Below, in pieces: positions 9,770 through 24,370 of a stretch of DNA of 47,949 bases. Origin of the DNA: Candidatus Kapaibacterium sp. (GTDB lineage Bacteria > Bacteroidota > Ignavibacteria > Kapaibacteriales > WFXC01); contig JALWJX010000004.1 in assembly GCA_026996895.1 (NCBI GenBank), positions 6,693 through 54,641 of the forward strand, given 5' to 3'. Every line of letters starts with the position of its first letter. Positions within the stretch are counted from its first letter, which is position 1. The notes under the pieces are model-generated. The model searched no databases. It saw only the letters and a program-made list of their open reading frames with translations, and had not been told where the DNA came from. Both the position numbers and the translations under genes were made by a program.

Positions 9770-9789
9770 CAATTCGCTAATTTTATGTC
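9770..9789 (+). promoter_or_regulatory. Conserved leader motif upstream of helical paralog 1
   Basis: This 20-nt stretch (CAATTCGCTAATTTTATGTC) matches 16 of 20 positions at 22410-22429, upstream of paralog 2. It lies 35 nt before the start codon here and 27 nt before it there. It includes a TAATTTTA (here) or TAAATTTA (paralog 2) segment resembling a -7 element ending in A instead of G. No good -33 TTTG lies 19-20 nt upstream. Promoter function is inference. Confidence 0.45.
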
Positions 9790-9823: not shown

Positions 9824-11404
9824 ATGGCAGATCACAAACTGGATCAGCTCCTGCGCGCCTTGCCGCCAATGTGGTGGAAGCGGATCAAGCAGGGTATACG
9901 GATTCAATTCACAGAAGCAGAGCAGTCCTTTCTGGAGCTTCTGGAACAGCATCCAGAATGGGACGATCAGCAGTTGCGCTCTGCGCTCCGGCAGCAAGGA
10001 ATCCAAACAGATCTTCGAGCGCTGCGGCATAAAGTGTACACCAAGGTATTGCAGATCGGAGCATACGTGCTAATGCAACAGGACAAACAAAGTACTATAT
10101 TGTTTGATCTGGTTCTTTCTCGCTTTGCTTTTGAGTGGAGGCAGGATAGCGATGCTTTAAAGGCTGTGGCAAAAACCTATCGCTCAGCCGATACCGCTGG
10201 TGACCCTATTCAAAAGCTGGCAGCAATGGTGCTACAGCTTGAGTACCATCTGCATCGAAACTTCCAACTGCTGGATCACGAGGCACTACGCAAAAGCTTC
10301 GAGCACTTGCAAACTGCTCTGGACCAGACTCAGCGATATGTGCAATTGCTTCTGCTAAATGTCCAATGGTACTCGCGGTATTTTGAAGGAGAAATTCGAA
10401 TTCCCAGTTCCGAAGCTGCAACAGTTGCTCCTATGGTTATCGAGCAACTCCAGAAGATTCCTGCTTATGAAGCAGACCCGTTTCCTATCCCATTTCTGCG
10501 GTGGAACACCGAAGCGCTGCTGTGGAACATACAGGGACAACCGGACAAAGCAGTGCAATGCTATGAACAGCTTCTTCGGTATTTCCAGATCGCCGAAAGT
10601 CGAAAACACCTTTATTTACCGGCATATTTCAGTGCATTGCATAATCAGGTCGTTGCTGCAACAGCAGCCCGAAACGCAGCGATCGTCGAGCGGTGCTTTG
10701 CGGAAATTATACGGCTCCGGCAGCAATCGGATGCTGCAATCAAAAACGAAATGGATATGCTGTATCTGAACATCGTCCTGTATTTAGCTCTGGAATTAGG
10801 GAGCTTCGACAACATTTTCAATGACCGGTCGCACGTTGAAAAGATACTGCAGCACTATCGCCGACAGTATCCATATTTTTACAAAGTGGCTTTATACCAC
10901 CTGGGCTGCATCGCTTTCTGGTTACAGGAATACGACCTTGCCCGCCAGTATCTGGAAGCCGCTTACGATCATACTTCGCAACGACTGTTGCAGCAAATTG
11001 GCTTTGTGGTCCGACTCCTTTTATGCATCATTGCCTGGGAGCAGCAGGACCTTGAGGCGTTGGAACGGTTACTGGAGCGTCTTCGCCGGTTCGTCCGGCA
11101 GTATCCAGCTTTTGTTCCGGTGGTACGTGCAGTTCGACGGATAGTAGAGCGGATGCCGAGCACCTTTGCAGCACATCGACTGCCGGAGGAGCAGCCGTTC
11201 TACCAGCGCATCTATCGCATCTTTTCAGAGGCCTTGGCACGAGAATCGATCGAGTTTGACCTGGTTACCTGGCTGGAAGCCAAGGTGCAGGGGATATCAA
11301 TCACGGAGTATTATCAACAGAAGCGGCAGCAGCAGTGGGAAGAAAGCAGCGGACGAATGCCAGCGTTGCAATTCCTTCAATGGCACGAGCTGGTGCCGCA
11401 GTAG
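9824..11404 (+). CDS. Unknown alpha-helical (TPR-like) protein, paralog 1
   Basis: A 526-aa cytoplasmic-looking protein without signal peptide or membrane segment, of no family I recognise. The start at 9824 (MADHKLDQLLRALP) was chosen because it aligns with the start of the 532-aa paralog at 22456; the frame is open back to 9728. By eye well over half of the residues match the paralog. The strongest blocks are N-terminal (LLEQHPEWDDQQLRSAL, QTDLRALRHKVYT) and C-terminal (YPYFYKVALYHLGCIAFWL, ARQYLEAAYD, SQRLLQQIGF). The rest is amphipathic helices with TPR-like spacing (LRWNTEALLWNIQGQPDKAVQCYEQLLRYF). The N-terminal block could be a small winged-helix or protein-binding domain. Directly downstream comes promoter-like copy B and a T9SS metallopeptidase gene, as at the other locus, which hints at a shared regulatory or chaperone-like role (inference). 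Confidence 0.75.
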   Translation: MADHKLDQLLRALPPMWWKRIKQGIRIQFTEAEQSFLELLEQHPEWDDQQLRSALRQQGIQTDLRALRHKVYTKVLQIGAYVLMQQDKQSTILFDLVLSRFAFEWRQDSDALKAVAKTYRSADTAGDPIQKLAAMVLQLEYHLHRNFQLLDHEALRKSFEHLQTALDQTQRYVQLLLLNVQWYSRYFEGEIRIPSSEAATVAPMVIEQLQKIPAYEADPFPIPFLRWNTEALLWNIQGQPDKAVQCYEQLLRYFQIAESRKHLYLPAYFSALHNQVVAATAARNAAIVERCFAEIIRLRQQSDAAIKNEMDMLYLNIVLYLALELGSFDNIFNDRSHVEKILQHYRRQYPYFYKVALYHLGCIAFWLQEYDLARQYLEAAYDHTSQRLLQQIGFVVRLLLCIIAWEQQDLEALERLLERLRRFVRQYPAFVPVVRAVRRIVERMPSTFAAHRLPEEQPFYQRIYRIFSEALARESIEFDLVTWLEAKVQGISITEYYQQKRQQQWEESSGRMPALQFLQWHELVPQ

Positions 11405-11830
11405 CCATTTCCTTCTATTCCGGAGAATGAGAAGATGGAAAACTGTGTCGCTGAAACAATAACATTTTTTGGAAGAAGCGCTATTGCATTCGGGCAGCAA
11501 GTAGCGTGAATGTGCAGTATTGTGTCCGCACCCGGGGAATGCCAATTATGGAAACTCTCAAACCCAGCGTTTCTTTGCTTCCCGGTAGGAATAATCAGTT
11601 TACGCGCTTGTTCCTCGCCGAGGCCTTTTCAAAATTTTCCCTTGCCAGTCAAGAATTTCGATGTAAATTTGCCAAAAATGCAGCAAATTCGCCTATCAGG
11701 GTTTCCGGTACCGAAGGAGTTGGATGTCAGAATGTGAAACGGAATTTGGGGAAATGAACAAACGATAAAAAAAGATCCTTTCGAGTCCGGACAGTAGATA
11801 TGAGGCAATACAACCGAGGGGGAGAAACGA
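11405..11830. other. Gap with element copy B and a long leader
   Basis: It contains copy B of the promoter element at 11461-11520 and then about 310 nt before the metallopeptidase start. Small plus-strand frames near 11506-11757 have no recognisable domain or clear ribosome-binding site and are not called. GAGGGGGAGAAACGA directly precedes the metallopeptidase ATG and can serve as ribosome-binding site. Confidence 0.5.
11461..11520 (+). promoter_or_regulatory. Repeated promoter element, copy B (degenerate)
   Basis: Aligned without gaps to copy A over 50 nt (11471-11520 against 4421-4470), 40 positions match. The -33 equivalent is ATTG (11483-11486) and the -7 equivalent is TGAATGTG (11507-11514), again with a 20-nt spacer. 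Two departures from consensus in the -7 suggest a weak, activator-dependent or decayed promoter. Confidence 0.5.
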
Positions 11831-14758
11831 ATGATGGGAACTCCTAAAGGTGTTGTTACACTGGCACTATTGATCGCGATCAGCAGCAGCCTTGCTCAAG
11901 AACCTGCCTTCTTTTCGAAGGCGTATCAGCAACCGGTTGAATTCGTTCGGGAAGTTTTAAGCGAGACCTTGAGAGACTTTTACGTGGATGTTCAGGATCC
12001 CGTCTTCGGACACTCCAGAACCCTTCGTACGTTTCGGTTGCGCTGGAGAGGGTTTGCGGGATTTCCTTTCCAAGTGTGGATTGATACCTTGATCGATCAG
12101 GATATGGTGCGTCGAAAAGTGGATACGCTCTTGAAGTTTTTGGGAGATGAAACGCCCAGCAACTCGAAGGATCCCACGCTGGGCATCGGGACCTTGCTGC
12201 GACAGTGGATTGGAGAGGTGCCGAATCGGTTCCCGAAAGGGAATGCTGATACTGTCCATTACCTTGTCACTGATGTTGACTACGATGCTCGAGGATGGTT
12301 TAGTTCGCTGGACCAAAAGGATAAAGAGAGAAGTAACAGAGGCAATATCCTCTACCTGAATTGGAGAGAGTTTAGAGATAGTGCTGCAGTAGTCATTGCC
12401 GCAACCGTTGCCCACGAACTGGTTCACCTGATCGAACATCGATATGATCCGCAAGAAGAACGCTTCAGCTTAGAAGGACGGGCGCAGATGGGAGAATATA
12501 TCTGCGGCTTTCAGTGGGATGAGGTGGTGAACTCTTTTGTAACAGCGCTTCCAACCTATAAGCGAAGAGGCATTCTCCAGTTTGCCGATTTTTCAAGAGA
12601 AGACGTGGAAATAAGCTACGGGCGAGCGGCGCTGTTCTATAAGTACTGTCTGGAACAGTACGGCGATACACTCTTACGATACCTTGTGCAAAATCCGCTA
12701 TCCGGCAGAGCCGGGATTGATTCCGCACTGCGGCAGGTAGGTGCCGATCGCTCGTTCGTTGAGCTGGTCCGGGATTTTTGGATCGCCCTCTGGGTTCAGG
12801 ATCGCAATGTGGATCCTCGGTGGGGATTTCAGTATCACCTCAAGGATCGACCGTTTTCTGATAAGTCGTTTTCAGCTTACGAAACCGACTTCGATTCAAT
12901 GGACATCGCGCTTTTGTCAGAATACGAAGCTGCATACGTAGACTTCAGTGCTGCTACCCGAATTCTCCGCTTTCTGGAACGCCAGGATTCGGTGGTAGTA
13001 AAGCAGGTGTTGCACACCGTGCCGAAAAAAGTCATTGGCATTGCACTGACGGAACCTTCGCTAACTCCGTCGGATGTAAGGTGCAGCTACATTGTTGTCA
13101 ACCTTGGTACAGGAAAACGATACGATTGCAAACTCCAGAGCCGAAGTCTGGATTCAGCACATTTTCTGGGGAACGGTGCATTGTTCGGCAGCAATGCACA
13201 GAACGTAGCGCTTTTGTGGGGGAATACAAGGTTTAGCGGCATTGCTCCAGATCCAGATGATGACATTTCCTGTCTACTTTACCGAGTGGACCTTCGGAAC
13301 TGGAAGGTGCAATCGCTGCTGTTTGCCGGTGTACTTTTTGATACAGTCGGGCTCTACGGTATCTATCCACCGCAGCGAGCGCTGGTGCTCCCACACGAGG
13401 GGGTTGTTGCTGGTGACGATGGTGTTGCGTGGGTTGTCAGAAATCACCAGGTGAAGCAACTGCCAGGATGGGTACAGGATTCAACTGCTGCTTTCATCAA
13501 CTATGAAGATGAGCGGCTCCGGTATAGGTGGCAGTGGGAACCGTATATCGCTTTTCCCGATAACATCCACTTGCTCGGCGTTGTCGGCCGGCGAATCTGG
13601 TGGACCGATGAGTCTAGAGATACGCTCTATGTCAGCGATGTCGATACCCGATCGATTCAATCCTTTGCCCTTCGCCCCACCTTTTGGATCCCTGAGGATT
13701 TCCATCTGGATGGCAGCGTGATGGCGTGGCGGCGAAGTTACCGGGGTAGCGATTCAGTGCAAATAGTCGTATGGGGACCTAACCACCCCTATACCGTGTT
13801 AGCAGAATGGAACCGCCCAATCGTTGATGCTCGGTTTTATGACATTCTCGACCATCAAAAAGGTCGGGTAGTATGGCGCTTACCGGATACGGGGCGAGTT
13901 GACAAGCCGGACACGCTGGTTGTCTTTGATTACCGATCCCGGACAGAGCAGCGAATTGTTAGTCAAGCTCCTTCGGCAGCGATTCACCGCGCTCGCCTTT
14001 TCGGCGACACCCTGATCTGGACGGAAATTGTCGGTCTGGCTCCGGATGAAAAGATCCACACCATAACGGCTTATGATCTCACAACCCGGCGCGTCATCCG
14101 GCAATGGAGTTTTCCTGAACCGATGGAAGCAGAGGCGTGGTGGATTTCACCGCAGGTGCTGACTGCTTCAGGACTCTGGTGTCTGATCCGCATCGATACG
14201 CTGGAAAACTATGATCGAAATTATCGAACCCGAATCTATCAGTTGTCCTGGGATGGGCGCATACGCCGTCGAGCGGAGATTGCTGGCTGGACACCGAATG
14301 ATGATCGGATTGATATGACCGCATTGGATGGCAAAGCAAATGATGTGCTGGTGCCTATTACTGATTCTTCCTGTGTCGTAGAACTTTTCCCGGCAAAAGC
14401 GCAGTGGGATGATCCCGCCACAACGTACCATCCAGGGCTGTGGTATGTCCCGCTTCAGCGCATAAAGACGCCAGCGGGAGTGGCAGAGCATCGGGATCGT
14501 CCAGCTTTTGACCTTTCTATCAATCCTTCAGTCAACGATGGGCGCTTTACCATCTGCTGGAGTGTGCTACCGCAAAGCAGTGGTACAGCGACCGTATCAA
14601 TCTATGATGCACAAATGCGATTGCTCTGGAAACAGCACGTGGACATAAGCCAGCGCTGCTTCCAGCCAGTACTCCCGATGCTGAGCAATGGGATGTATGT
14701 GTGCCAGTTCCAGTACGGAACCACAACCATAGTCCAGCCGTTTTTCGTGCGCCGGTAG
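11831..14758 (+). CDS. T9SS-secreted HExxH metallopeptidase (M30-like arrangement)
   Basis: A 975-aa protein with a signal peptide (MMGTPKGVVTLALLIAISSS, cleaved near SLAQ); a second ATG follows directly. The zinc motif is H195-E-L-V-H199. The segment FSLEGRAQMGEY, with E215, resembles the downstream Glu ligand region of gluzincins such as the M30 hyicolysin family (EG..EY). H203 is an alternative third ligand. A large beta-rich middle (about 370-870) has strands reminiscent of a WD/TolB-like propeller (GRRIWWTDESRDTLYVSD, DSVQIVVWGPNHPYTVL). The end is a T9SS type-A sorting domain (VSIYDAQMRLLWKQ, LSNGMYVCQF). It is probably surface-displayed and proteolytic. The family assignment is tentative; the presence of the motif is certain. 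Confidence 0.8.
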   Translation: MMGTPKGVVTLALLIAISSSLAQEPAFFSKAYQQPVEFVREVLSETLRDFYVDVQDPVFGHSRTLRTFRLRWRGFAGFPFQVWIDTLIDQDMVRRKVDTLLKFLGDETPSNSKDPTLGIGTLLRQWIGEVPNRFPKGNADTVHYLVTDVDYDARGWFSSLDQKDKERSNRGNILYLNWREFRDSAAVVIAATVAHELVHLIEHRYDPQEERFSLEGRAQMGEYICGFQWDEVVNSFVTALPTYKRRGILQFADFSREDVEISYGRAALFYKYCLEQYGDTLLRYLVQNPLSGRAGIDSALRQVGADRSFVELVRDFWIALWVQDRNVDPRWGFQYHLKDRPFSDKSFSAYETDFDSMDIALLSEYEAAYVDFSAATRILRFLERQDSVVVKQVLHTVPKKVIGIALTEPSLTPSDVRCSYIVVNLGTGKRYDCKLQSRSLDSAHFLGNGALFGSNAQNVALLWGNTRFSGIAPDPDDDISCLLYRVDLRNWKVQSLLFAGVLFDTVGLYGIYPPQRALVLPHEGVVAGDDGVAWVVRNHQVKQLPGWVQDSTAAFINYEDERLRYRWQWEPYIAFPDNIHLLGVVGRRIWWTDESRDTLYVSDVDTRSIQSFALRPTFWIPEDFHLDGSVMAWRRSYRGSDSVQIVVWGPNHPYTVLAEWNRPIVDARFYDILDHQKGRVVWRLPDTGRVDKPDTLVVFDYRSRTEQRIVSQAPSAAIHRARLFGDTLIWTEIVGLAPDEKIHTITAYDLTTRRVIRQWSFPEPMEAEAWWISPQVLTASGLWCLIRIDTLENYDRNYRTRIYQLSWDGRIRRRAEIAGWTPNDDRIDMTALDGKANDVLVPITDSSCVVELFPAKAQWDDPATTYHPGLWYVPLQRIKTPAGVAEHRDRPAFDLSINPSVNDGRFTICWSVLPQSSGTATVSIYDAQMRLLWKQHVDISQRCFQPVLPMLSNGMYVCQFQYGTTTIVQPFFVRR

Positions 14759-15284
14759 TGTACTGGGCTCAATAGCGATAGGATTCCTTATGATGAACAG
14801 TGGGCATTCCAGGGTGAATTCAGATGAGAGCACGCCCTTAGGGCGCATCTATCGGGAGCATACTCTTCAGTGCGCATTTACGGTGGTGGGACAACGGATT
14901 ACGAAGAAGGAATTAAGACAACAGAGTCTCCTTCAGTGCGCATTTACGGTGGTGGGACAACCCTCCGGATTATCGAGGACAAGCCAGCGGCTTGTCCTCC
15001 TATTTAGTTGTTTCCGGCTGAAGTCGGCGCTCCCAGTGGGGCACTCTCAGTGTCGGTGTTCCCATCGCTTGGGAGCGCACACTCTGAGGTGTGCATCACC
15101 CTCACCCTTTCCCAGAGAAGGAGGGAAGTTGTTGCCGACTGAACTCGGCGCTCCAGTCACTGGGAGCGCACGCTTCAGTGGGCGTTTTTTGCCAGCCAAA
15201 GCCGGCGCTCCCAGAGACAACGCTCCCGGTAGTCCTCAGTATCCTGTCTGAGAACAGTGTTGAAAAAATAAAAGGAGCTGTACG
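14759..15284. repeat. Intergenic repeat cluster
   Basis: No gene. It holds the same modules as 1207-1870: CTTCAGTGCGC hairpins, GGTGGTGGGACAACCCTCCGG joined to GGACAAGCCAGCGGCTTGTCC (about 14945-14997), CCGGCTGAAGTCGGCGCTCCCAG (near 15014), CCCTCACCCTTTCCCAGAGA (near 15100) and CAGCCAAAGCCGGCGCTCCCAG (near 15192). A plus-strand frame at 14790-15251 is made entirely of these repeats and is not a gene. AAAGGAGCTG just before 15285 is the ribosome-binding site of the next gene. Confidence 0.85.
14865..14961. repeat. 31-bp perfect direct repeat pair
   Basis: The 31 bases at 14865-14895 recur identically at 14931-14961 (both begin CTTCAGTGCGC and end GGGACAAC), 66 bp apart start to start. Related but diverged copies lie at about 1790-1830 and, inverted, at about 24155-24205. 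Confidence 0.9.
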
Positions 15285-17807
15285 ATGAATTCCAGACTCT
15301 GGCTGTTCACTCTCTCCGTACTCTTTGTGCTCCGATCTTTCGCAATGGCACAGCAACAGCAATGGATGCCTGTTGGACCGGGCGCTGGAAGCGATCTGTT
15401 GACAGCCGCTTTTCAACCGGATAACCCGGACGTGATCTATGTTGCTGGAGACATCGAGGGAATTTTCAAAACAACCGATGGTGGCAAAACGTGGCGGATG
15501 ATCAATAACACGCTCAGTAGAACCTTCGCTGCAAACGCTTATTACGTTCAGGACATAGCGATCAACCCACTCAATTATCACTCGGTATTCATTGCCGCCG
15601 GAGCAGTTTTCAAAAGCACCGCAGCCGGCGATAACTGGCAACTCTTTTTTCCGGATACGATCGAGTACACCGAACGATTTGACGAAATAGCCGCTGCCGT
15701 GATCGAAATTGATCCTGCCGATACGAATTTCATTCTCGTCGGTTCAGGAAACCGACACGAGCTCGGCGAAGGGACGGGAAGATTATACAGAACCAGTGAC
15801 GGCGGACAGACGTGGGATACACTCTATCTGCCCGGTGACCCTTCAAATATCACTGGCATCGTGATCGACCCGATCTCTCCGGTTGGCAACCGACGAATTT
15901 TTGTCGCAACAGATTCCAGGATGTACAGAAGCGATGACGGAGGACAGACGTGGGATGCAGTGAGTAACGGGTTGACGGATAAAATCTGCCGGCAGCTCCG
16001 GGGCGTTGTGCACAACGGACAACTGCTGTTGCTTGTCACCGTCGAACTGGATGTCGATCCGCAGGATACAACTCGCTACACGGGAGGGATATTCAGAAGC
16101 ACCGACCTTGGAGAAACCTGGGTGGATATTACCGGAAATCTTCCGAAGTGGAGCGTCGAAGATGAGGCTGCTTATACCTACGCAAGTTTCGCTGTCCATC
16201 CCTCCAATCCGGAGATTATCTATATCGCAACTTTTCGGAACTACGCTGCGTGGTCCGGTGCGGGAATTTTCAAGACTACCAACGGTGGACAGACCTGGCA
16301 GCGGATGCAGCAGGGCTATCGCACCTCAACGGGCTGGTTGGAAGCACCGTTTTTTTCAGAATACAACGCCCACTATCTGGAAATGGCACCCAGCGATCCG
16401 TCGATTCTGGTAATGGGAACGGTGGATATGTACAAAACCACCGATGCAGGTGAAACGTGGGAGCAAATATACGCCACGAAAACGGCAAATGGATGGACCA
16501 CGCGAGGAATGGAGTGTATGGCAGTTGAAGGAATCGCTTTTGATCCTTCTGATCCGGACGTACTGTATGTCGCCTACGACGACTTTGGACCGTTTCGATC
16601 CGATGACGGTGGATATTCATTCTACCCGCTGGATCCGTATCAAGATCCGTATGAAGGATACGATGCTGCCAGAAACATCATCGTTGATCCAGCGAACAAC
16701 AACATCATCTATATGACCCGATACGAAGGTATAGGAGCAACGGAGGCAATTGGCTATGCTGATGGCGGCTTATGGATCAGCCGGGATCGGGGGAACACGT
16801 GGCAGCGTGTTGCCAATCTGCCGAAAGGAAAACCCTTCCTGGTAATGGACACAGCTTCTGGAACGCCGCAGACACGAACGCTGTACTACGCCAGCTTCTG
16901 GAACGGGCTTTACAAATCCACGGATAGTGGAAACAACTGGATACAACTCGGAGTGGATACTGACTTCCGGTACATCTGGACCCTTTCCATCAATCCGGCG
17001 AACGCCAATGAAATTTTCGTGGGACTCTACAAAGGAAGTCGTGGCGGTCCGGGCGGACTGTACGCATCCACCGACGGCGGAGCAACGTGGCGCAGACTGG
17101 AGCACTTTCCTGCTTCCAGCGTTTTCAACATCAAATTCGACAGTGAAGGAACGATCTACGTGTGTGCGACAGATTTCTACGACTGGAGCACCGATGGCGG
17201 GTTATATCGCTCAACGGACGGCGGAGCTACGTGGACGAAAATCTTCGACGCACCCAGAACCTTCGATGTTGCGATCGATCCAGCGAATCCCCGCAACATC
17301 GCCGTTGCTGTGCAGGGGTGGTACCAGTATCTCCCGTCGATGAAGAAAGGGATTCACGTCACCACCGATGGCGGACAGACCTGGACAGACATCACAAACA
17401 ACCTCCAGCACACGCTCATCACGTTCATCACGCTCAACCCCACCCGTCCGAACCAGCTTTACGTCGGCACGCTGGGCGGCGGGCTGTGGCGCGCCGATGA
17501 TGCGTTCCTTACTGCCGTTCGAGAAACCCGGAGGAATCGTCAGTCACAGTGGCTTCGCTCTACCGTGCATCCCAATCCCCTGATGAAGACAGCGCGCATC
17601 GAATTCGTACTACCCCAACCAGCGTACGTGCGGCTGACGGTTACTGATATGCTGGGCAGAACGGTAGCAACCATCGTGGAAGGTGGAATGGCAGCAGGGA
17701 AGCAGTCGGTAGTCCTCGATGCAGCGGAATTGCCGGCGGGAGTCTATGTGTATCACCTCAGCGCTGGCGGCGCTGTCGATGTGAACCGTATCGTTGTGGT
17801 GAAGTAG
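15285..17807 (+). CDS. T9SS-secreted Asp-box (BNR/sortilin-like) beta-propeller protein
   Basis: An 840-aa protein with a signal peptide (MNSRLWLFTLSVLFVLRS to AMAQ) and a good ribosome-binding site (AAAGGAGCTG). Twelve Asp-box motifs of the S/T-x-D-x-G-x-T-W type are visible, for example TTDGGKTW, TSDGGQTW, SDDGGQTW, STDLGETW, TTNGGQTW, TTDAGETW, SRDRGNTW, STDSGNNW and STDGGATW (twice). This resembles VPS10/sortilin or Ycf48-type propellers, folds used for carbohydrate or protein binding; sialidase activity cannot be inferred. Strands such as DVIYVAGDIEGIFK precede each box. The final ~85 residues are a T9SS type-A sorting domain (VTDMLGRTVATIVEG, LPAGVYVYHLS). Flanked by repeat-rich gaps, it is probably a single-gene unit. 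Confidence 0.88.
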   Translation: MNSRLWLFTLSVLFVLRSFAMAQQQQWMPVGPGAGSDLLTAAFQPDNPDVIYVAGDIEGIFKTTDGGKTWRMINNTLSRTFAANAYYVQDIAINPLNYHSVFIAAGAVFKSTAAGDNWQLFFPDTIEYTERFDEIAAAVIEIDPADTNFILVGSGNRHELGEGTGRLYRTSDGGQTWDTLYLPGDPSNITGIVIDPISPVGNRRIFVATDSRMYRSDDGGQTWDAVSNGLTDKICRQLRGVVHNGQLLLLVTVELDVDPQDTTRYTGGIFRSTDLGETWVDITGNLPKWSVEDEAAYTYASFAVHPSNPEIIYIATFRNYAAWSGAGIFKTTNGGQTWQRMQQGYRTSTGWLEAPFFSEYNAHYLEMAPSDPSILVMGTVDMYKTTDAGETWEQIYATKTANGWTTRGMECMAVEGIAFDPSDPDVLYVAYDDFGPFRSDDGGYSFYPLDPYQDPYEGYDAARNIIVDPANNNIIYMTRYEGIGATEAIGYADGGLWISRDRGNTWQRVANLPKGKPFLVMDTASGTPQTRTLYYASFWNGLYKSTDSGNNWIQLGVDTDFRYIWTLSINPANANEIFVGLYKGSRGGPGGLYASTDGGATWRRLEHFPASSVFNIKFDSEGTIYVCATDFYDWSTDGGLYRSTDGGATWTKIFDAPRTFDVAIDPANPRNIAVAVQGWYQYLPSMKKGIHVTTDGGQTWTDITNNLQHTLITFITLNPTRPNQLYVGTLGGGLWRADDAFLTAVRETRRNRQSQWLRSTVHPNPLMKTARIEFVLPQPAYVRLTVTDMLGRTVATIVEGGMAAGKQSVVLDAAELPAGVYVYHLSAGGAVDVNRIVVVK

Positions 17808-18411
17808 GAGCGGGAAGTTATTGCTACGCTGAGTTTGTGGAGACTCAGGCTTTCTGCAAAGGAAGCCTGAAAGCAGGGAATACAGTTGCTACACGAAGTT
17901 TATGGAGACCCAGAGCGTAGCGAGACTGCGAAGAAGGTCCCCACCGATGCTGCGCTGTGCAGGAGCATTTCAGTAACGGTTCCCCCGTACCGCCGGGATT
18001 TCGGGAGTGTGTTGCGTACTTCCGGGATCGCATAAGGAACGATCAGTCCGCTTTTGCTCCAGTAGCACGTTCAGTGATGGTCTCGCCTTGATCCACTTAT
18101 TGGAACTCCCCCTGTTTCAGTGGGGCACTGAGCATAGCCAGGATTATGGAAGGGGGACCATAGCCGGCATCGTGTAAGGGAAACAATTTTCTCATTCGGT
18201 TCGATAGTTAGCATTTTTTTCGTATCTTCGCCTATCGCACTATGAGCTTCTGGTAAAGCAGGAATGGGAATGGCAGAACCACAAAACACGTGGCTATTGT
18301 TTGTGGGTTTGTCGTGTGAAAGCAGAAGAGTGAAGGTCTATAAAACCGCAGGATCTTCTCACTTCAGTGGTGATTTCCCTCGTACTTTCAGGAACGATCA
18401 GGAGAGAGGCA
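17808..18411. other. Repeat-bearing gap upstream of the HAF-repeat gene
   Basis: No gene found. A diverged direct repeat (TTGCTAC...GAGTTTGTGGAGACTCAG near 17820 and TTGCTACACGAAGTTTATGGAGACCCAG near 17885) starts the gap. A CAGGCTT/AAGCCTG hairpin lies at 17846-17869 (10-nt loop, no T-tract). A possible promoter is TTCG-N19-TATCTTCG at about 18201-18231, a poor match to the TTTG...TANNTTTG form. CAGGAGAGAGGCA precedes the ATG at 18412. Confidence 0.45.
17846..17869. repeat. Inverted repeat after the Asp-box gene
   Basis: CAGGCTT (17846-17852) pairs with AAGCCTG (17863-17869) across a 10-nt loop, 38 bp after the stop codon. The lack of a following T-run argues against an intrinsic terminator; it may still slow or process the transcript end. 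Confidence 0.5.
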
Positions 18412-19755
18412 ATGCGTCGATGGGTGTATTCAGCAGGCTTCGTTCTGCTCCTTGCTGTTAGCACCGGGAACGGACAGCACCTGCGCTGGCTGGGGACGCT
18501 GGGCGGAAGTAAAAGCTGGGCGTATGGGATCTCTGCCGATGGGCGTTTCGTTGTCGGCTGGGCGGAAAACGATAGTAGCTGGCGGCGGGCTGTGCGGTGG
18601 GATGTGCTAACTGGCCAGGTGCAGGATCTGGGAACCCTTGGAGGAAAGGAGAGTGTTGCGTTCGGGATTTCCGCCGATGGTCGGTATGTCGTCGGCTGGG
18701 CGGAAAATGACAGTAGCTGGCGACGTGCTGCACGATGGGATGCGCTGACTGGCCAGGTGCAGGATCTGGGGCATCTGGGCGGTGGCTGGAGTCGGGCGTA
18801 TAGCATTGCCGCCGATGGACGCTTCATCGTCGGCTGGGCGGAAAATGCTGCTGGACAGTGGCGCGCCGTACGGTGGGATATGCAGTCTGGACAGATGGAA
18901 GAACTGGGAACGCCGGGCGGCAGTGAGAGCATTGCCTACGGGATCTCCGCCGATGGACGCTTCGTTGTTGGCTGGGCAGAAAATGCTGCTGGACAATGGC
19001 GCGCTGTGCGATGGGATATGCAGAGCGGGGAAATTCAGAAGCTTGGAGCCTTAGGAGGGAATGAAAGCTATGCGTTTGGCATCTCAGCCGACGGGCGATT
19101 TGTGGTTGGCTGGGCAGAGAATGACAGCGGTGACGTCCACGCTGTTCGGTGGGATATGGAAACTGGTCTGACCCAGGACCTCGGTACGCTGGGTGGCGGT
19201 TCGAGTTGGGCTGTGGGCGTTTCGTCGGACGGACGGTATGTCGTCGGCTGGGCAGAGAATGATAGCGGCGAGGTCCGCGCTGTTCGGTGGGATGCCGTAG
19301 CAGGCATAGCGGAAAACCTTAGCCAGGCCTACAGCACTCTGCTCGCCGGCGATTCCTTCCTCAAGGAAGCACGCGCCATCCTGCCAGATGGCCGCTACAT
19401 CGTGGGCGTAGGATTCAATGCCATAGCAGGTCGCTGGAGAGAAGCCTTCTGGCTGGATGCGCAATCGTCCACGGACTTGAGCGATAGTGGAGATATTCCG
19501 TGGAAGGTCAACGTTGTGCACCCTCTCGCCAGCCCTGACATCCACATCGGTTTTTCGCTGCCGAAACCTGCATCCGTAACGCTGGAAATCTACGACCTGC
19601 TGGGATACCACGTAGCAACGCTGGTCGATAGGATCTTGCCACCCGGCGAGCATCAGGTGCGGTGGGCGTTGCCAGGGATACCTGAAGGCATCTACCTGTG
19701 CCACATCCGTGCTGGGGAATTGAACAAAACAGTGAAGGTGATTGTGGTACGTTGA
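18412..19755 (+). CDS. T9SS-secreted protein made of six HAF repeats
   Basis: A 447-aa protein whose ATG at 18412 follows CAGGAGAGAGGCA and begins a signal peptide (MRRWVYSAGFVLLLAV, cleaved near GNGQ); the longer frame from 18367 lacks support. Residues about 28-303 are six tandem HAF-family extracellular repeats with an exact 46-residue period (consensus LGTLGGxxSxAxGISADGR, then VVGWAEND, RAVRWD, GQVQDL). Such repeats plausibly fold as one compact propeller, and a six-bladed one would use all copies. A terminal unit (ILPDGRYIVGVGFN) and then a T9SS type-A sorting domain (IYDLLGYHVATLVD, IPEGIYLCHIRAG) follow. There is no enzymatic domain, so it may be the bare HAF scaffold of the protease-bearing relatives at 6381 and 24418. 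Function unknown. Confidence 0.85.
   Translation: MRRWVYSAGFVLLLAVSTGNGQHLRWLGTLGGSKSWAYGISADGRFVVGWAENDSSWRRAVRWDVLTGQVQDLGTLGGKESVAFGISADGRYVVGWAENDSSWRRAARWDALTGQVQDLGHLGGGWSRAYSIAADGRFIVGWAENAAGQWRAVRWDMQSGQMEELGTPGGSESIAYGISADGRFVVGWAENAAGQWRAVRWDMQSGEIQKLGALGGNESYAFGISADGRFVVGWAENDSGDVHAVRWDMETGLTQDLGTLGGGSSWAVGVSSDGRYVVGWAENDSGEVRAVRWDAVAGIAENLSQAYSTLLAGDSFLKEARAILPDGRYIVGVGFNAIAGRWREAFWLDAQSSTDLSDSGDIPWKVNVVHPLASPDIHIGFSLPKPASVTLEIYDLLGYHVATLVDRILPPGEHQVRWALPGIPEGIYLCHIRAGELNKTVKVIVVR
18493..19320 (+). repeat. Six tandem 138-bp coding repeats (HAF array)
   Basis: The codon of the first residue of the GISADGR-type motif begins at 18526, 18664, 18802, 18940, 19078 and 19216, a constant 138-bp spacing with no indel. 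Copies differ mainly by single-base changes. Confidence 0.9.
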
Positions 19756-19849
19756 GGATTTTTTCCGTGCCGTCACGCTATCGTAATCCGGCATCATAGG
19801 GAATGTACGTGCTCAACGCTTTGGAAACGCCGGGTACTGAACCCCGCCA

Positions 19850-19870
19850 CCGGGGGTATTGTGCCCCCGG
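19850..19870. terminator. Hairpin between convergent genes
   Basis: CCGGGGG (19850-19856) and CCCCCGG (19864-19870) with a 7-nt loop lie midway between the plus-strand HAF gene end (19755) and the minus-strand gene end (19879). Position and strength suggest a bidirectional transcription end, but no T-tract follows on either strand. Confidence 0.4.
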
Positions 19871-19878
19871 CGGCACGG

Positions 19879-21222
19879 CTATAACGTGAAGTCCTGGATG
19901 GCGAGGATCTGATTGTGCTGATCGCGGAGTATCAGGAAGTATTGTCCTGTCGAGAGCGATTGCGGGAGCGGGATCTGGAGCTCATTACTGCCAGACTGAA
20001 GATTGCCGTTCCAGATGAGACCAAGGTCCCGTTCTGAGACGTCGACGATTGAAATGGTGCTGCCGGGCAATGGTTGCGATGTGACGATTTTCAGATGTAG
20101 CACTGGTGGCGAAGCATTCCTGTCGATAGTTACGCCTATGAACGAGATGGAGAGGATGCCGGCCAATGTAATGCCGATCCGCTCGCCTTGAACCGTCCGT
20201 GCGCTGGTATCGCCCCAGATCGTGTCTACCACAATCACAAATTCCGGGTCAAATTCCATTGGATAACCCCCGTAGCGTGCTTCGTAATCCGCCCGAATTG
20301 CAGAGTCCAGTACAAAGGCGAAGGGAGGAATGTGCGGTGGCAGTTTACCTGTTGCTGCCAAGCCAGAGTCCAGATAGGCGCGCAAAGTAGCATAATATGC
20401 GTGGTTTAGGGAATCCATTTCAGTTTCTGGAAAATACAGACTTCCTCGCCCTTCTGCTGCTGCGCTACTATCGTAGTCCCACAGGGTAGAAAGCGAACAC
20501 CATTTCAGGGAACAGAGCAGATGGAGGCCATACGGCGCGGGACCATACCGATAGGCTTTGATCTGCACGTATGCGGTCGTTCCTGCAAGTTCTGAAGGAA
20601 GCGATCGGAAATGCCGCGTTCGATTGGGCTCAGTGCCAAAGCGAACAGGAAACCACGACTGCCGATTCGGATATACACCGACACTGTCGAGTACTGCCAG
20701 TACTGCGTTGTCACTGGCGCGGCAGAGCTCCGTGACGAAAATTACCGTGTCCTGAATCCATCCCGGTGGCGTTACCCAGTACGCATCGGTCCAATGCGGT
20801 GGCGACGGTGCAGAATCCAGTGGTATAGGAGAAAGCTGACAGGGAAAAGCACGACTGAGTAATCGAAAGAAAAAGAGTGTTGCATTGCCGGGAATGGTAA
20901 AGGTATCCGTGCGCGTGAAGTTGAGGAGAAAGGTGTCCAGTCCACGATCTGGGATCCCTCTGATCCCTTCAGAAGGGATGGATTTGTACCGGATGGGAAT
21001 CACCCGTTCCGTTGAGCTGTCCAGCAGGAGGCGGAATTCACCAATGGTACAACTGACGATAGCGGACTCAAAGTAATCATTGAATTCGTAGTACGAAAGC
21101 TTGCCCTGATCCCTCATCGAGAGAAGGAAGAGAGGACGCGGGTAAAATTGGTCAATCCATCGCTGGGCTGCCACTGGAATACAGAGAATCAGGCTTATGA
21201 CAAAACACCATCTTGCACGCAT
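19879..21222 (-). CDS. T9SS-secreted protein of unknown function
   Basis: A 447-aa protein. The ATG with A at 21222 begins a good signal peptide (MRARWCFVISLILCIPVAAQ); the frame is open further to 21288 without better support. No known domain is seen in the ~350-residue body. It is beta-rich with several Cys residues (SCTIGEF, AFPCQL, ELCRAS, LLCSLKWCSL) and an ETEMDSLNHAYYATLRAYLDSG helix. The last ~80 residues form a sorting domain (ISIVDVSERDLGLIWNG, LSTGQYFLILRD). It is convergent with the HAF-repeat gene and divergent from the sigma-factor gene, and is probably exported and surface-attached. Its role cannot be inferred. Confidence 0.75.
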   Translation of the reverse strand: MRARWCFVISLILCIPVAAQRWIDQFYPRPLFLLSMRDQGKLSYYEFNDYFESAIVSCTIGEFRLLLDSSTERVIPIRYKSIPSEGIRGIPDRGLDTFLLNFTRTDTFTIPGNATLFFFRLLSRAFPCQLSPIPLDSAPSPPHWTDAYWVTPPGWIQDTVIFVTELCRASDNAVLAVLDSVGVYPNRQSWFPVRFGTEPNRTRHFRSLPSELAGTTAYVQIKAYRYGPAPYGLHLLCSLKWCSLSTLWDYDSSAAAEGRGSLYFPETEMDSLNHAYYATLRAYLDSGLAATGKLPPHIPPFAFVLDSAIRADYEARYGGYPMEFDPEFVIVVDTIWGDTSARTVQGERIGITLAGILSISFIGVTIDRNASPPVLHLKIVTSQPLPGSTISIVDVSERDLGLIWNGNLQSGSNELQIPLPQSLSTGQYFLILRDQHNQILAIQDFTL

Positions 21223-21418
21223 CGCCCTGCTCCTTGCTTTCGCCACTACCTTGCTGCCTATGGAACCTTCTTTTGCTACGGGTCTCACATCCTATAGAGG
21301 ATTTTCGGCGCAAAATTTTTCACCTCCGATGCTGGAGCCAGCAGTGAAAGTGCAGACGGTGATTGAGAAATCTGCAAAGAGAAAAAAACGGTTCCGCAGT
21401 GGCCGAGACACCGCATAA
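21197..21418 (+). CDS. Possible small exported peptide (low confidence)
   Basis: A 73-aa frame begins MTKHHLARIALLLAFATTLL and continues to SFATG, which looks like a signal peptide, followed by a short basic tail (KSAKRKKRFRSGRDTA). Its first 26 bp overlap, antisense, the start of the secreted-protein gene that begins at 21222. No promoter or ribosome-binding site is evident. The resemblance may be chance: the strand opposite a hydrophobic-rich gene start often looks hydrophobic. Confidence 0.25.
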   Translation: MTKHHLARIALLLAFATTLLPMEPSFATGLTSYRGFSAQNFSPPMLEPAVKVQTVIEKSAKRKKRFRSGRDTA

Positions 21419-21497
21419 TGGGCATCGATGCCGATTTTGCAGGGAAATGCTTAAATTAGAACCGATCAAAGAGTCGCTGAGATGGGGGTACATCGCT

Positions 21498-22193
21498 ATG
21501 AGCGAGGAGACGACCATTGTACAGCAACTCTTACCGCTGTTCCAGTATGCCCTGCCAGATATTGCACCGCATCAAATAACGCAGGTCCTGGGTCAACTAC
21601 TGGAGGAAGAGTCCATAACGGCGGTGGTAGATGCGTTCTTCCACTTTGATGCCCTCCTCCCGAAAGTTGCAGAGCAATGCCAGGTGTCGAGTTATCACCC
21701 GCCTGACCTCTTACAGTTCCCGGTTGCGCTTCGCATTTTGCAGCACACGCTCCGGCACTTTCTGGATCACCACTTTGCTGCTTCTCCTCCAGAGGATCGA
21801 AAGGATGCGGTGCAAGAAGCGCTTGCAATCCTCCTGGAGAAAGCACCCCGGAAGATTCGACACATTCCCGGAGCGCTCTGGCGCTATGCGAAAAAAGTCG
21901 CGGTTCGCTCCCTCACCTCGGAGGCTCGCAAACGGGCGCAGAAAGTGTCTGCACTCTCTCAGGAACCGGTCGACTTGCATTCTCCCGAAATAACAGTGGA
22001 TGCCCGACTGCAACTGGAACGTCTTGAGCAGTGGATACGCCGGCGGTTCGGTCCGGACGTCTGGGATATGGTATACCGCAGGGCTCAGGGATGGACCTTA
22101 GAAGAAATTGCTCGCCGCCATCACTGCTCTGCGGCAACCGTTTGTCGCCACATCCAGCAGGTACTGGAAGCACTGCGCCAGCATAACGATTGA
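21498..22193 (+). CDS. ECF-like sigma-70 family RNA polymerase sigma factor
   Basis: A 231-aa protein; the start at 21498 (MSEETTIVQQLLP) is preferred, with in-frame ATGs at 21447 and 21363 as alternatives. Residues about 100-150 match sigma region 2: PPEDRKDAVQEALAILLEK corresponds to the DxxQE-type segment, and GALWRYAKKVAVRSLTSEAR to the WL..IA.N...D..R segment that melts the -10. Residues about 180-228 match region 4: a helix-turn-helix in GWTLEEIARRHHCSAATV, then CRHIQQVLEAL. The first ~95 residues are an unusual extra helical domain that might be regulatory. No anti-sigma factor is adjacent; the next gene downstream (262-bp gap) is helical paralog 2. It may direct transcription of the local secretome genes (inference). 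Confidence 0.75.
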   Translation: MSEETTIVQQLLPLFQYALPDIAPHQITQVLGQLLEEESITAVVDAFFHFDALLPKVAEQCQVSSYHPPDLLQFPVALRILQHTLRHFLDHHFAASPPEDRKDAVQEALAILLEKAPRKIRHIPGALWRYAKKVAVRSLTSEARKRAQKVSALSQEPVDLHSPEITVDARLQLERLEQWIRRRFGPDVWDMVYRRAQGWTLEEIARRHHCSAATVCRHIQQVLEALRQHND

Positions 22194-22409
22194 CAACAAA
22201 CATTGGTACGCGAAGATCGGGCATGTATACCACTGCGAGAACACGCCCTTTGACTTGGTGCCGTGCGCTGCTCGTTCCCTCCACACTGAACAATGTTTGC
22301 AGAAGTGCTGGTAATCAGGGAAGGGGCTGTCTTTGCGTTGAATAATGTCCCCAAAAGATTGAAGCCTGAGACTCTCGCAAAGTGGCAAGGGCAACAGCGC
22401 TTTGCATCC

Positions 22410-22429
22410 AATTTGCTAAATTTACGCCG
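22410..22429 (+). promoter_or_regulatory. Conserved leader motif upstream of helical paralog 2
   Basis: CAATTTGCTAAATTTACGCC, matching 16 of 20 bases of the motif at 9770-9789. TAAATTTA resembles a -7 element; the upstream TTTG at 22402-22405 is too close (12 nt) to be a standard -33. Confidence 0.45.
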
Positions 22430-22455
22430 GGACGTTCAAGCAAGCTAAACGCACG

Positions 22456-24054
22456 ATGGCACATTACAAACTGACTCAATTATTGCGCACACTTCCTTCA
22501 GCTCTGTGGCAGCAAATCAAACAGGGAATACGGATTCAACTCACGGAAGCAGAGCATGCCCTTCTGGAGCTTCTGGAACAGCATCCAGAATGGGACGATC
22601 AACAGTTGCGCTCTGCTCTCCAGCAACAAGGAATTCAAACAGATCTTCGGGCACTGCGGCACAAGGTGTATACCAGAGTGTTGCAGATTGGAACGTACGT
22701 TTTAATGGGACAGGACAAGCAGAGTGCTGGACTGTTCAATCTGGTTCTCTCCCGCTTTGCTTTTGTAGGAGGACAGGATGACGATGCTTTAAAAGCTACG
22801 CAAAGAACCTATCGCACTGCCGACATCGCTGCTGATCCTGTGCAAAAACTGGCGGCGGCGGTGTTGCAACTTGAGTATCACAGTCATCGGAACTTTCAGT
22901 TGTTCAGCCAGGAGGAGCTTTCTCAGCATCTGGAAGAGTTACAGGAAGCGCTGAACCAGACCCAGCGGTTTGTGCAATTACTGGATATCCATTCCCGATG
23001 GAACACCCGCTACGTTGAAGGCAACGTTCGAGCTTCCAGTGCGGAAGGATCGGCACTCATTCAGCCAGTAATCGATCAGCTTCAGCGCATTCCTGCTTAT
23101 ATGACCGATCCTTTTCGCATCCCTTTTTTACGCTGGAACACCGAGGCACTGCTATGGGGTATCAGTGGTCAGCCAGCACGGGCAGCAGAATGTTATGAAC
23201 AGTTGATCCAGTATTTTCAATACGATTCCCAGCGACTGCAGTTGTACCCGTTAGCCTATTTCAATGCGCTGCATAACCAGATCATCTACGCTGCAGCCGC
23301 TCGCGATGCGCATACCACCGAGCGGCGGTTTGAAACTATCAAACAGCTTCGGCGGCAGGAAAACGCTTTTGCGCAAAGCAACGAGATTGTTAAGGATGAA
23401 GTGGAAATGCTGTATCTGAACGTGGTGTTGTACCTGGCACTGGAATTAGGACAGTTTGAAGAAATCTTTGCCCATCGGCAGATAATCGAACAGATTCTGC
23501 AGCAGTATCGCCAGCGATATCCCTACTTTTACAAAGCAGCTTTGTACCACCTTGGCTGCATTGCTTTCTGGCTGCAAGAGTATCACCTTGCTCGCCAGTA
23601 TCTGGAAGCCGCGTACGATCGTACCTCGCAACGGCTGTTGCAACAAATCGGTTTTCACGTGCGACTCCTTCTGAGCATCATTGCCTGGGAACAGCGCGAC
23701 TTTGAAGCAACAGAGCGTGCGCTGGGACGCCTTCATCGATTTGTGCGGCAGTACCCTTCATTTGTCCCCGTGGTGCGGGTGATGCGACGCATCCTGCAGC
23801 GGATACCCAACACTGTTGCAGCATCGCAACTTCCGGCAACGCTGCCGTTTTACCAGCGCATCCATCGCATCCTTTCAGAAGCTCTGGAGCAGGAATCGAT
23901 CGAATTCGATATTCTCACCTGGCTGGAAGCGAAAGTAGCAGGTATGTCGATCACGGAATACTATCAGCAGAAACGGCAGCAGGAGTGGAAAGAGGGCAGC
24001 GGGCGGATGCCAGTGCTGACATTTCTGCAATGGCACGAGCTGATGGCAGAGTAG
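22456..24054 (+). CDS. Unknown alpha-helical (TPR-like) protein, paralog 2
   Basis: A 532-aa protein (MAHYKLTQLLRTLPSAL), the second copy of the family seen at 9824-11404. It is collinear with paralog 1 except for about six extra residues near RRQENAFAQSNEIVKDE. Nearly invariant blocks are LLELLEQHPEWDDQQLRSAL, QTDLRALRHKVYT, LRWNTEALLW, LYHLGCIAFWLQEY, ARQYLEAAYD and SITEYYQQKRQQ. No signal peptide, membrane helix or catalytic motif is seen. It lies between the ECF-like sigma factor and, after a repeat-bearing gap and promoter copy C, a HAF/metzincin T9SS gene. A helical-repeat adaptor or regulator is possible, but nothing in the sequence proves it. Confidence 0.75.
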   Translation: MAHYKLTQLLRTLPSALWQQIKQGIRIQLTEAEHALLELLEQHPEWDDQQLRSALQQQGIQTDLRALRHKVYTRVLQIGTYVLMGQDKQSAGLFNLVLSRFAFVGGQDDDALKATQRTYRTADIAADPVQKLAAAVLQLEYHSHRNFQLFSQEELSQHLEELQEALNQTQRFVQLLDIHSRWNTRYVEGNVRASSAEGSALIQPVIDQLQRIPAYMTDPFRIPFLRWNTEALLWGISGQPARAAECYEQLIQYFQYDSQRLQLYPLAYFNALHNQIIYAAAARDAHTTERRFETIKQLRRQENAFAQSNEIVKDEVEMLYLNVVLYLALELGQFEEIFAHRQIIEQILQQYRQRYPYFYKAALYHLGCIAFWLQEYHLARQYLEAAYDRTSQRLLQQIGFHVRLLLSIIAWEQRDFEATERALGRLHRFVRQYPSFVPVVRVMRRILQRIPNTVAASQLPATLPFYQRIHRILSEALEQESIEFDILTWLEAKVAGMSITEYYQQKRQQEWKEGSGRMPVLTFLQWHELMAE

Positions 24055-24314
24055 TCACTGTTTCTGTTCTTAGGAGGAAAAGTGAACCGAAACACCAGCT
24101 TTCGAGGACAAGATGTAAATAGTAGAGCAAACCGTTGGTTTAGCCTGGACAACCCGGAGGGTTGTCCTACCACAGATGGTGTACGCTGAAGCGTGCGCTC
24201 CCGGTAAGTGCGGGCTGCAATGTGTGTTGCCAGTGAGCAACGTGCCGAAAAACTTTTCCACCAACGGAAACCCGGCAGCGATTGGCTGCATATACCGTTA
24301 AAAGAAACGCCTTT
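24055..24314. repeat. Intergenic repeats between paralog 2 and the metzincin gene
   Basis: Contains GGACAACCCGGAGGGTTGTCC (near 24151) and a CGCTGAAGCGTGCGCTCCCGG hairpin (near 24185), inverted relatives of the modules at 1790-1870 and 14931-14997. A segment ACCAACGGAAACCCGGCAGCG (near 24260) recurs near 27562. No gene. Confidence 0.8.
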
Positions 24315-24370
24315 CAGTAACATTTTATGAAAAATGCATTTGCATTGAAGCAATCTACATCGTAAATTTG
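24315..24370 (+). promoter_or_regulatory. Bacteroidota-type promoter inside the repeated element (copy C)
   Basis: TTTG at 24339-24342 and TAAATTTG at 24363-24370 with a 20-nt spacer, again a perfect consensus match. Over the 32 nt ending at the TTTGCATT motif, 27 positions equal copy A (4409-4440). The start codon at 24418 is 47 nt downstream. Confidence 0.75.

Follow-up and report, generated by a model that had tools for sequence, protein, structure and literature searches.

Paralogous TPR proteins beside secreted metallopeptidase genes in Candidatus Kapaibacterium: candidate one-component regulators from a nearly empty protein family

Two paralogous genes within a cluster of secreted-protein genes

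We analyzed a 47,949-nucleotide stretch of a Candidatus Kapaibacterium genome (the window), which carries two genes for collinear paralogous proteins, referred to as copy 1 and copy 2 (Table 1). The two products are 69% identical, both open reading frames are intact with ATG starts, and the boundaries assigned to both genes in an earlier sequence-only reading proved correct. A search of the contigs of this genome (2.7 Mb, 138 contigs) recovered no paralog beyond these two. Both copies are present in the same order in the sister Ca. Kapaibacterium genomes G247 (JALWUI01) and G253 (WFXC01); therefore, the duplication predates the split of the three genomes. Both copies are under purifying selection, with a dN/dS of ~0.14 between them and of 0.15–0.21 among orthologs. 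The conserved N-terminal and C-terminal blocks noticed earlier are real. Synonymous differences occur in only 2 of 20 codons of the N-terminal block (aa 26–50), compared to roughly 40–50% elsewhere, and point to gene conversion as a contributor to the likeness of this block. The C-terminal block (aa 351–400) shows ~40% synonymous differences, a near-normal rate, and we attribute its conservation to selection at the protein level. Read by eye, the N-termini (MADHKLDQLL and MAHYKLTQLL) contain no hydrophobic segment.

Table 1 Features of the two loci in the window, in order of position.
Feature	Position	Strand	Description
T9SS-tail protein gene upstream of copy 1	6381..9191	+	936 aa; candidate further target
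Leader motif of copy 1 (CAATTCGCTAATTTTATG)	9772..9789	+	probably the promoter −7 region or a site of autoregulation
Copy 1	9824..11404	+	526 aa; TPR protein whose head is HTH-like; distantly related to NCBIfam NF058569 (BT2802 family)
Promoter-like TTGC-N18-TAAATTTG	11642..11671	+	upstream of protease gene 11831–14758
Protease gene after copy 1	11831..14758	+	975-aa secreted protein, HExxH (AHELVH); matches MXAN_6640-type metalloproteases weakly; T9SS tail also weak
Sigma-70/ECF-like gene upstream of copy 2	21363..22193	+	248 aa from an alternative ATG at 21447
Leader motif of copy 2 (CAATTTGCTAAATTTACG)	22412..22429	+	conserved leader
Copy 2	22456..24054	+	532-aa paralog of copy 1
HTH-like head of copy 2	22498..22713	+	codes residues 15–86; predicted sigma region-4/HTH-like
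TPR superhelix of copy 2	22810..24000	+	codes residues 119–515; predicted, resembles Rap/NprR receptors
Promoter-like GTAAATTTG	24362..24370	+	upstream of protease gene 24418–27207
Protease gene after copy 2	24418..27207	+	929-aa HAF-repeat secreted metallopeptidase (HELGHTLGLRH), T9SS tail

As the sequence-only reading had described, each copy is followed by a gene for an HExxH protein with a T9SS tail, although the tail of the 975-aa protein falls below curated cut-offs and was recovered by a home-made profile only. Copy 2 is preceded by a sigma-70/ECF-like gene (TIGR02937, 46.8 bits, cut-off 42.9), whose product is 93–95% conserved in both sister genomes. The family copies are co-directional with the proteases, not divergent from them. 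The first 31 kb of the window are rich in T9SS-tail genes, and because the region is a T9SS-gene cluster, adjacency in the window proves little by itself. In G253 the HAF-type T9SS protease adjoins copy 1, whereas in this genome and G247 it adjoins copy 2 (L004:9600-10108, L005:9582-12944). The G253 protease is 61% identical and sits between copy 1 and the ortholog of the 975-aa protein, leaving copy 2 without a protease; thus, the protease association is not fixed. The single-strand layout of regulator-like gene, promoter, and protease is specific to the genus. Where it has moved, the HAF protease still adjoins a family gene. Separately, the window holds two HAF-repeat T9SS proteins (18412–19755 and 24418–27207) that are 44% identical over 346 aa; the former, which is the shorter, lacks HExxH and so looks like a non-protease paralog.

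Two kinds of DNA element accompany these genes. A genome-wide search allowing up to two mismatches finds the 20-nt leader motif CAATTYGCTAAWTTTAYG upstream of the two family genes and nowhere else, in keeping with the earlier description of a shared leader. Its CAATT(C/T)GCTAA core is invariant in all six copies from the three genomes (one copy has a further mismatch, in its TTT tract), and the motif is probably a shared promoter or a site through which the genes may regulate themselves. The second element, GTAAATTTG, does precede both protease genes as had been claimed; its proposed role as a special part of a system we rejected, as the pattern is enriched across the genome, with 23 sites for TTGC-N18-TAAATTTG at one mismatch or fewer, compared to 9 in a reversed control. 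Judged from its sequence, it is an ordinary Bacteroidota-type promoter. Within the window, allowing three mismatches, the same pattern occurs at chance level (45 found, 43.8 expected). The spacer between copy 2 and its protease gene also contains repeat units, GACAACCCGGAGGGTTGTCCTACC and CTGAAGCGTGCGCTCCC (24148–24202), both of which are found in the sister genome loci, and CTGAAGCGTGCGCTCCC is found again at 15162 in the window.

A sparsely annotated family and its gene neighbors

The two proteins had been thought to belong to no recognized family, which did not hold: both match NCBIfam NF058569 (‘BT2802 family ribose utilization protein’, BT_2802_fam) remotely over their full length, with residues 36–494 and 5–500 aligned to model positions 38–499 and 6–499 of 502 and scores of 27.0 and 41.6 bits against a cut-off of 550. 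The model was matched by each of the 57 relatives tested, a set that contains the window pair (best E 6e-62). A member exceeded the cut-off in only 1 of 392 sampled Bacteroidota genomes. Placement in a known, unrelated family would have counted against the sequence-only reading; this happened in part only, the entry being named but nearly empty and barely characterized. Pfam returned nothing beyond weak TPR matches for the family proteins, PADLOC returned no match, and a literature search gave nothing usable on BT2802 or on a TPR leucine regulator. BT2802 is presumably RusR of Bacteroides thetaiotaomicron. RusR has been credited with control of the ribose locus BT2803–2809 in that species (PMC12596196).

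Profile searches recovered full-length relatives of ~520 aa across the Bacteroidota, with at least one family match in 106 of the 392 genomes and in 54 of 178 genera. Copy number per genome ranges from 0 to dozens; the expanded Kapabacteria genomes G251, G252, and G256 each hold at least 12 scored matches, with 29–99 first-look candidates. At one locus (L052:5987-11062, contig C92 of G256), three family copies lie in tandem, the usual state being a lone divergent gene. In the family tree, members beside leucine and isoleucine/valine (leu/ilv) genes form one clade and members beside ribose genes likewise form one; the branch of the window pair is so long (3.58 changes per site) that its exact position is unsure. 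The family also shares a signature in its N-terminal head, S-L-x-x-x-E-K-R-Y-F-K (E 93%, K 89%, R 79%), whose E-K-R is absent from the window pair.

The neighbors of these relatives extend well beyond secreted proteins, so that the family is not tied to secreted genes only. Outside the order, 16 of 29 sampled relatives (nine loci from a first phylum-wide search and 7 of 20 fetched later) lie in divergent orientation to leuA, leuC, or ilvE; other leu/ilv genes adjoin, and the family gene is usually about 150–250 bp from its divergent neighbor. Pfam matches on example neighbors were to HMGL-like, aconitase family, aminotransferase IV, ILVD, and TPP enzyme domains, and the remaining neighbors were assigned via near-identical N-termini. 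One relative of the 29 (L171) is divergent from gltB, encoding glutamate synthase, and four are divergent from a ribokinase, with ribose neighbors confined to the L152–L155 clade. L152 itself, the member over the NF058569 cut-off, is divergent from a ribokinase gene followed by a nucleoside hydrolase and a sugar/ureide permease. Footprinting of the leuA-family and ribokinase-family intergenic regions gave no convincing shared operator.

Within Kapabacteria, we compared 37 relatives in the three expanded genomes with 185 other genes of those genomes, drawn from 20 stretches placed arbitrarily, using a simple ORF caller, the home-made T9SS-tail profile, and relatives picked by score rather than randomly. 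The upstream gene was divergent for 31 of 37 relatives compared to 71 of 185 background genes (P = 3e-7), and a divergent T9SS-tail gene lay upstream of 12 of 37 compared to 4 of 185 (P = 1e-7). The window layout, with a co-directional T9SS gene downstream, was not enriched (1/37 against 9/185). Thus, the sequence-only reading of a regulator, element, and secreted-protease system retains the regulator-like protein and its link to secreted genes; the repeated unit does not stand as a conserved system, being not enriched elsewhere, differently arranged in G253, and joined by a generic promoter. Numerous paralogs unconnected to secreted genes would speak against such a system; this objection applies to other Bacteroidota and fails inside Kapabacteria. 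Across the phylum, the family pairs divergently and non-randomly with operons and T9SS genes. We also observed a clade of family members divergent from small proteins of 145–220 aa that are only weakly similar to each other (L088:12491-13015, L089:4325-4987, L095:5061-5525, L098:4531-5022, L054:8431-8970), several of which end in a motif like (I/V)G..D(I/L).I.DP.

These counts bear on the possibility that adjacency in the window is mere chance and that the pair regulates something elsewhere from within a T9SS-rich, recombining region. The density of T9SS-tail genes around the pair, the shift of the HAF protease between copies among the three genomes, and the gene conversion in the N-terminal block would all fit such an account. 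We nonetheless consider it fairly unlikely, given that divergent pairing with T9SS genes in other Kapabacteria genera lies far above background and that the relocated protease remains beside a family copy.

Predicted structure

Structure prediction and structural search had been proposed as a check on both proteins, and gave a confident all-helical model (AlphaFold with 57 sequences, pLDDT 86.7, pTM 0.85) with a TPR body like those of Rap and NprR. Residues 119–515 form a TPR superhelix in the model, whose top match was Rap (4gyo_B, Z 19.2, rmsd 4.8, 316 aligned); further matches to solved structures were to a phage Rap, NprR (Z 16.6), and domain III of MalT (Z 13.7). Eukaryotic TPR proteins were interspersed among these top matches, and the body may be a generic TPR fold; because such folds are common, the ranking of Rap is no proof of a ligand.

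The head (residues about 14–86) folded on its own with a pLDDT of 90.6. Its top match was the −35-binding domain of a sigma factor (sigma region-4; 3hug, Z 6.4, 68 of 73 residues), and most of the next rows were winged-helix or HTH proteins (Lrp, Fur, MarR, RpiR, TFIIE), all at low Z. Such values (Z below 8, Foldseek E above 1) fall short of what marks true relatives. With the head alone, Foldseek gave no match under E 1, which does not indicate a new fold. Across the family the head is basic, at +3.8 per 100 residues compared to −0.4 for the rest. We take the model as suggestive of a DNA-binding head but not as proof of one.

The same structural data raise the alternative of a TPR adaptor that binds protein rather than DNA, exerting Rap-like control over another regulator, such as the ECF-like sigma factor whose gene precedes copy 2, and through it over secreted-protein genes. 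Such an adaptor would agree with top fold matches to Rap phosphatases and anti-activators, which act through protein binding, with the retention of the sigma-factor gene in all three genomes, and with how weakly the head resembles sigma region 4 and other HTH proteins. However, there is no sigma or response-regulator gene at copy 1 or, as far as read, at most relatives, and the basic head is an extra domain ahead of the Rap alignments, which begin at about residue 119. We regard this adaptor role as unlikely.

A candidate ligand-switched regulator

We favor the reading, at a probability of roughly 60%, that both proteins function in the cytoplasm as one-component transcription regulators, switched by a ligand and acting on neighboring genes. 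The basic N-terminal helical head (residues about 1–90) would bind DNA at nearby promoters, while the C-terminal TPR superhelix would sense a small ligand, perhaps a peptide or a metabolite, as in RRNPP receptors or MalT. Ligand binding would alter DNA binding and so switch the neighboring genes: here the T9SS-exported metallopeptidases, and elsewhere leu/ilv operons, ribose use, and glutamate synthase. On this reading the window pair is probably a divergent branch acting on neighboring secreted-protein genes, with the two proteases as putative targets. In its favor are the full-length matches of all 57 relatives to the BT2802 family, the divergent pairing of relatives with leu/ilv, ribose, gltB, and T9SS genes, the Rap-like body, the basic head, and the separate clades of leu/ilv and ribose members. 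Against it stand the low scores of the head matches, the loss of E-K-R, the long branch of the window pair and its co-directional orientation to the proteases, the T9SS-rich surroundings, the missing protease at copy 2 in G253, and the lack of a conserved operator in the leuA-family intergenic regions. A non-regulatory TPR scaffold or chaperone for making or exporting T9SS proteins, to which the T9SS-tail genes adjoining family genes in the window and in the expanded Kapabacteria might point, is highly unlikely given the leu/ilv, ribose, and gltB neighbors of relatives in other Bacteroidota, the lack of an apparent signal peptide or membrane segment, and copy numbers from 0 to dozens.

Beyond the regulator reading itself, we tentatively suggest something broader, which is possible though somewhat doubtful: that the family is a phylum-wide, essentially undescribed class of one-component regulators with a sigma4-like head and an RRNPP-like TPR sensor, possibly peptide-sensing, which was duplicated in Kapabacteria to control single T9SS-secreted proteins, each regulator being divergent from its own target. 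What is new here is the link of the family to leu/ilv operons across the Bacteroidota and to T9SS genes in Kapabacteria, together with the predicted HTH-plus-TPR architecture. About one in four sampled Bacteroidota genomes carries the family, often adjoining leucine/isoleucine/valine operons, and its annotation hardly goes further than ‘ribose utilization protein’ or TPR protein. If these are true regulators, branched-chain amino acid synthesis in Flavobacteria and their relatives would gain a candidate local regulator, and secreted proteases in Kapabacteria would gain a candidate switch, an idea that can be tested in genetically tractable species.

Comparison with known proteins locates the pair more closely. 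With the BT2802 family it shares a collinear, full-length remote match over ~500 aa, and members of that family likewise adjoin, divergently, the pathway genes that they are thought to serve; the pair differs in its scores (27 and 42 bits against 550), in the loss of the EKR head signature, and in having T9SS proteases rather than ribose genes as neighbors. The predicted superhelix resembles those of the RRNPP receptors Rap and NprR (Z up to 19.2), and NprR has an HTH head ahead of its TPR domain, as the window proteins may have, whereas identity is ~10%, the phylum is another, the TPR region of the window proteins is longer, and the head similarity is weak. MalT, a transcription activator, likewise carries a helical-repeat sensor (1hz4, the domain III match); in contrast to MalT, the window proteins lack both the ATPase domain and the C-terminal LuxR HTH, and their HTH-like head is N-terminal.
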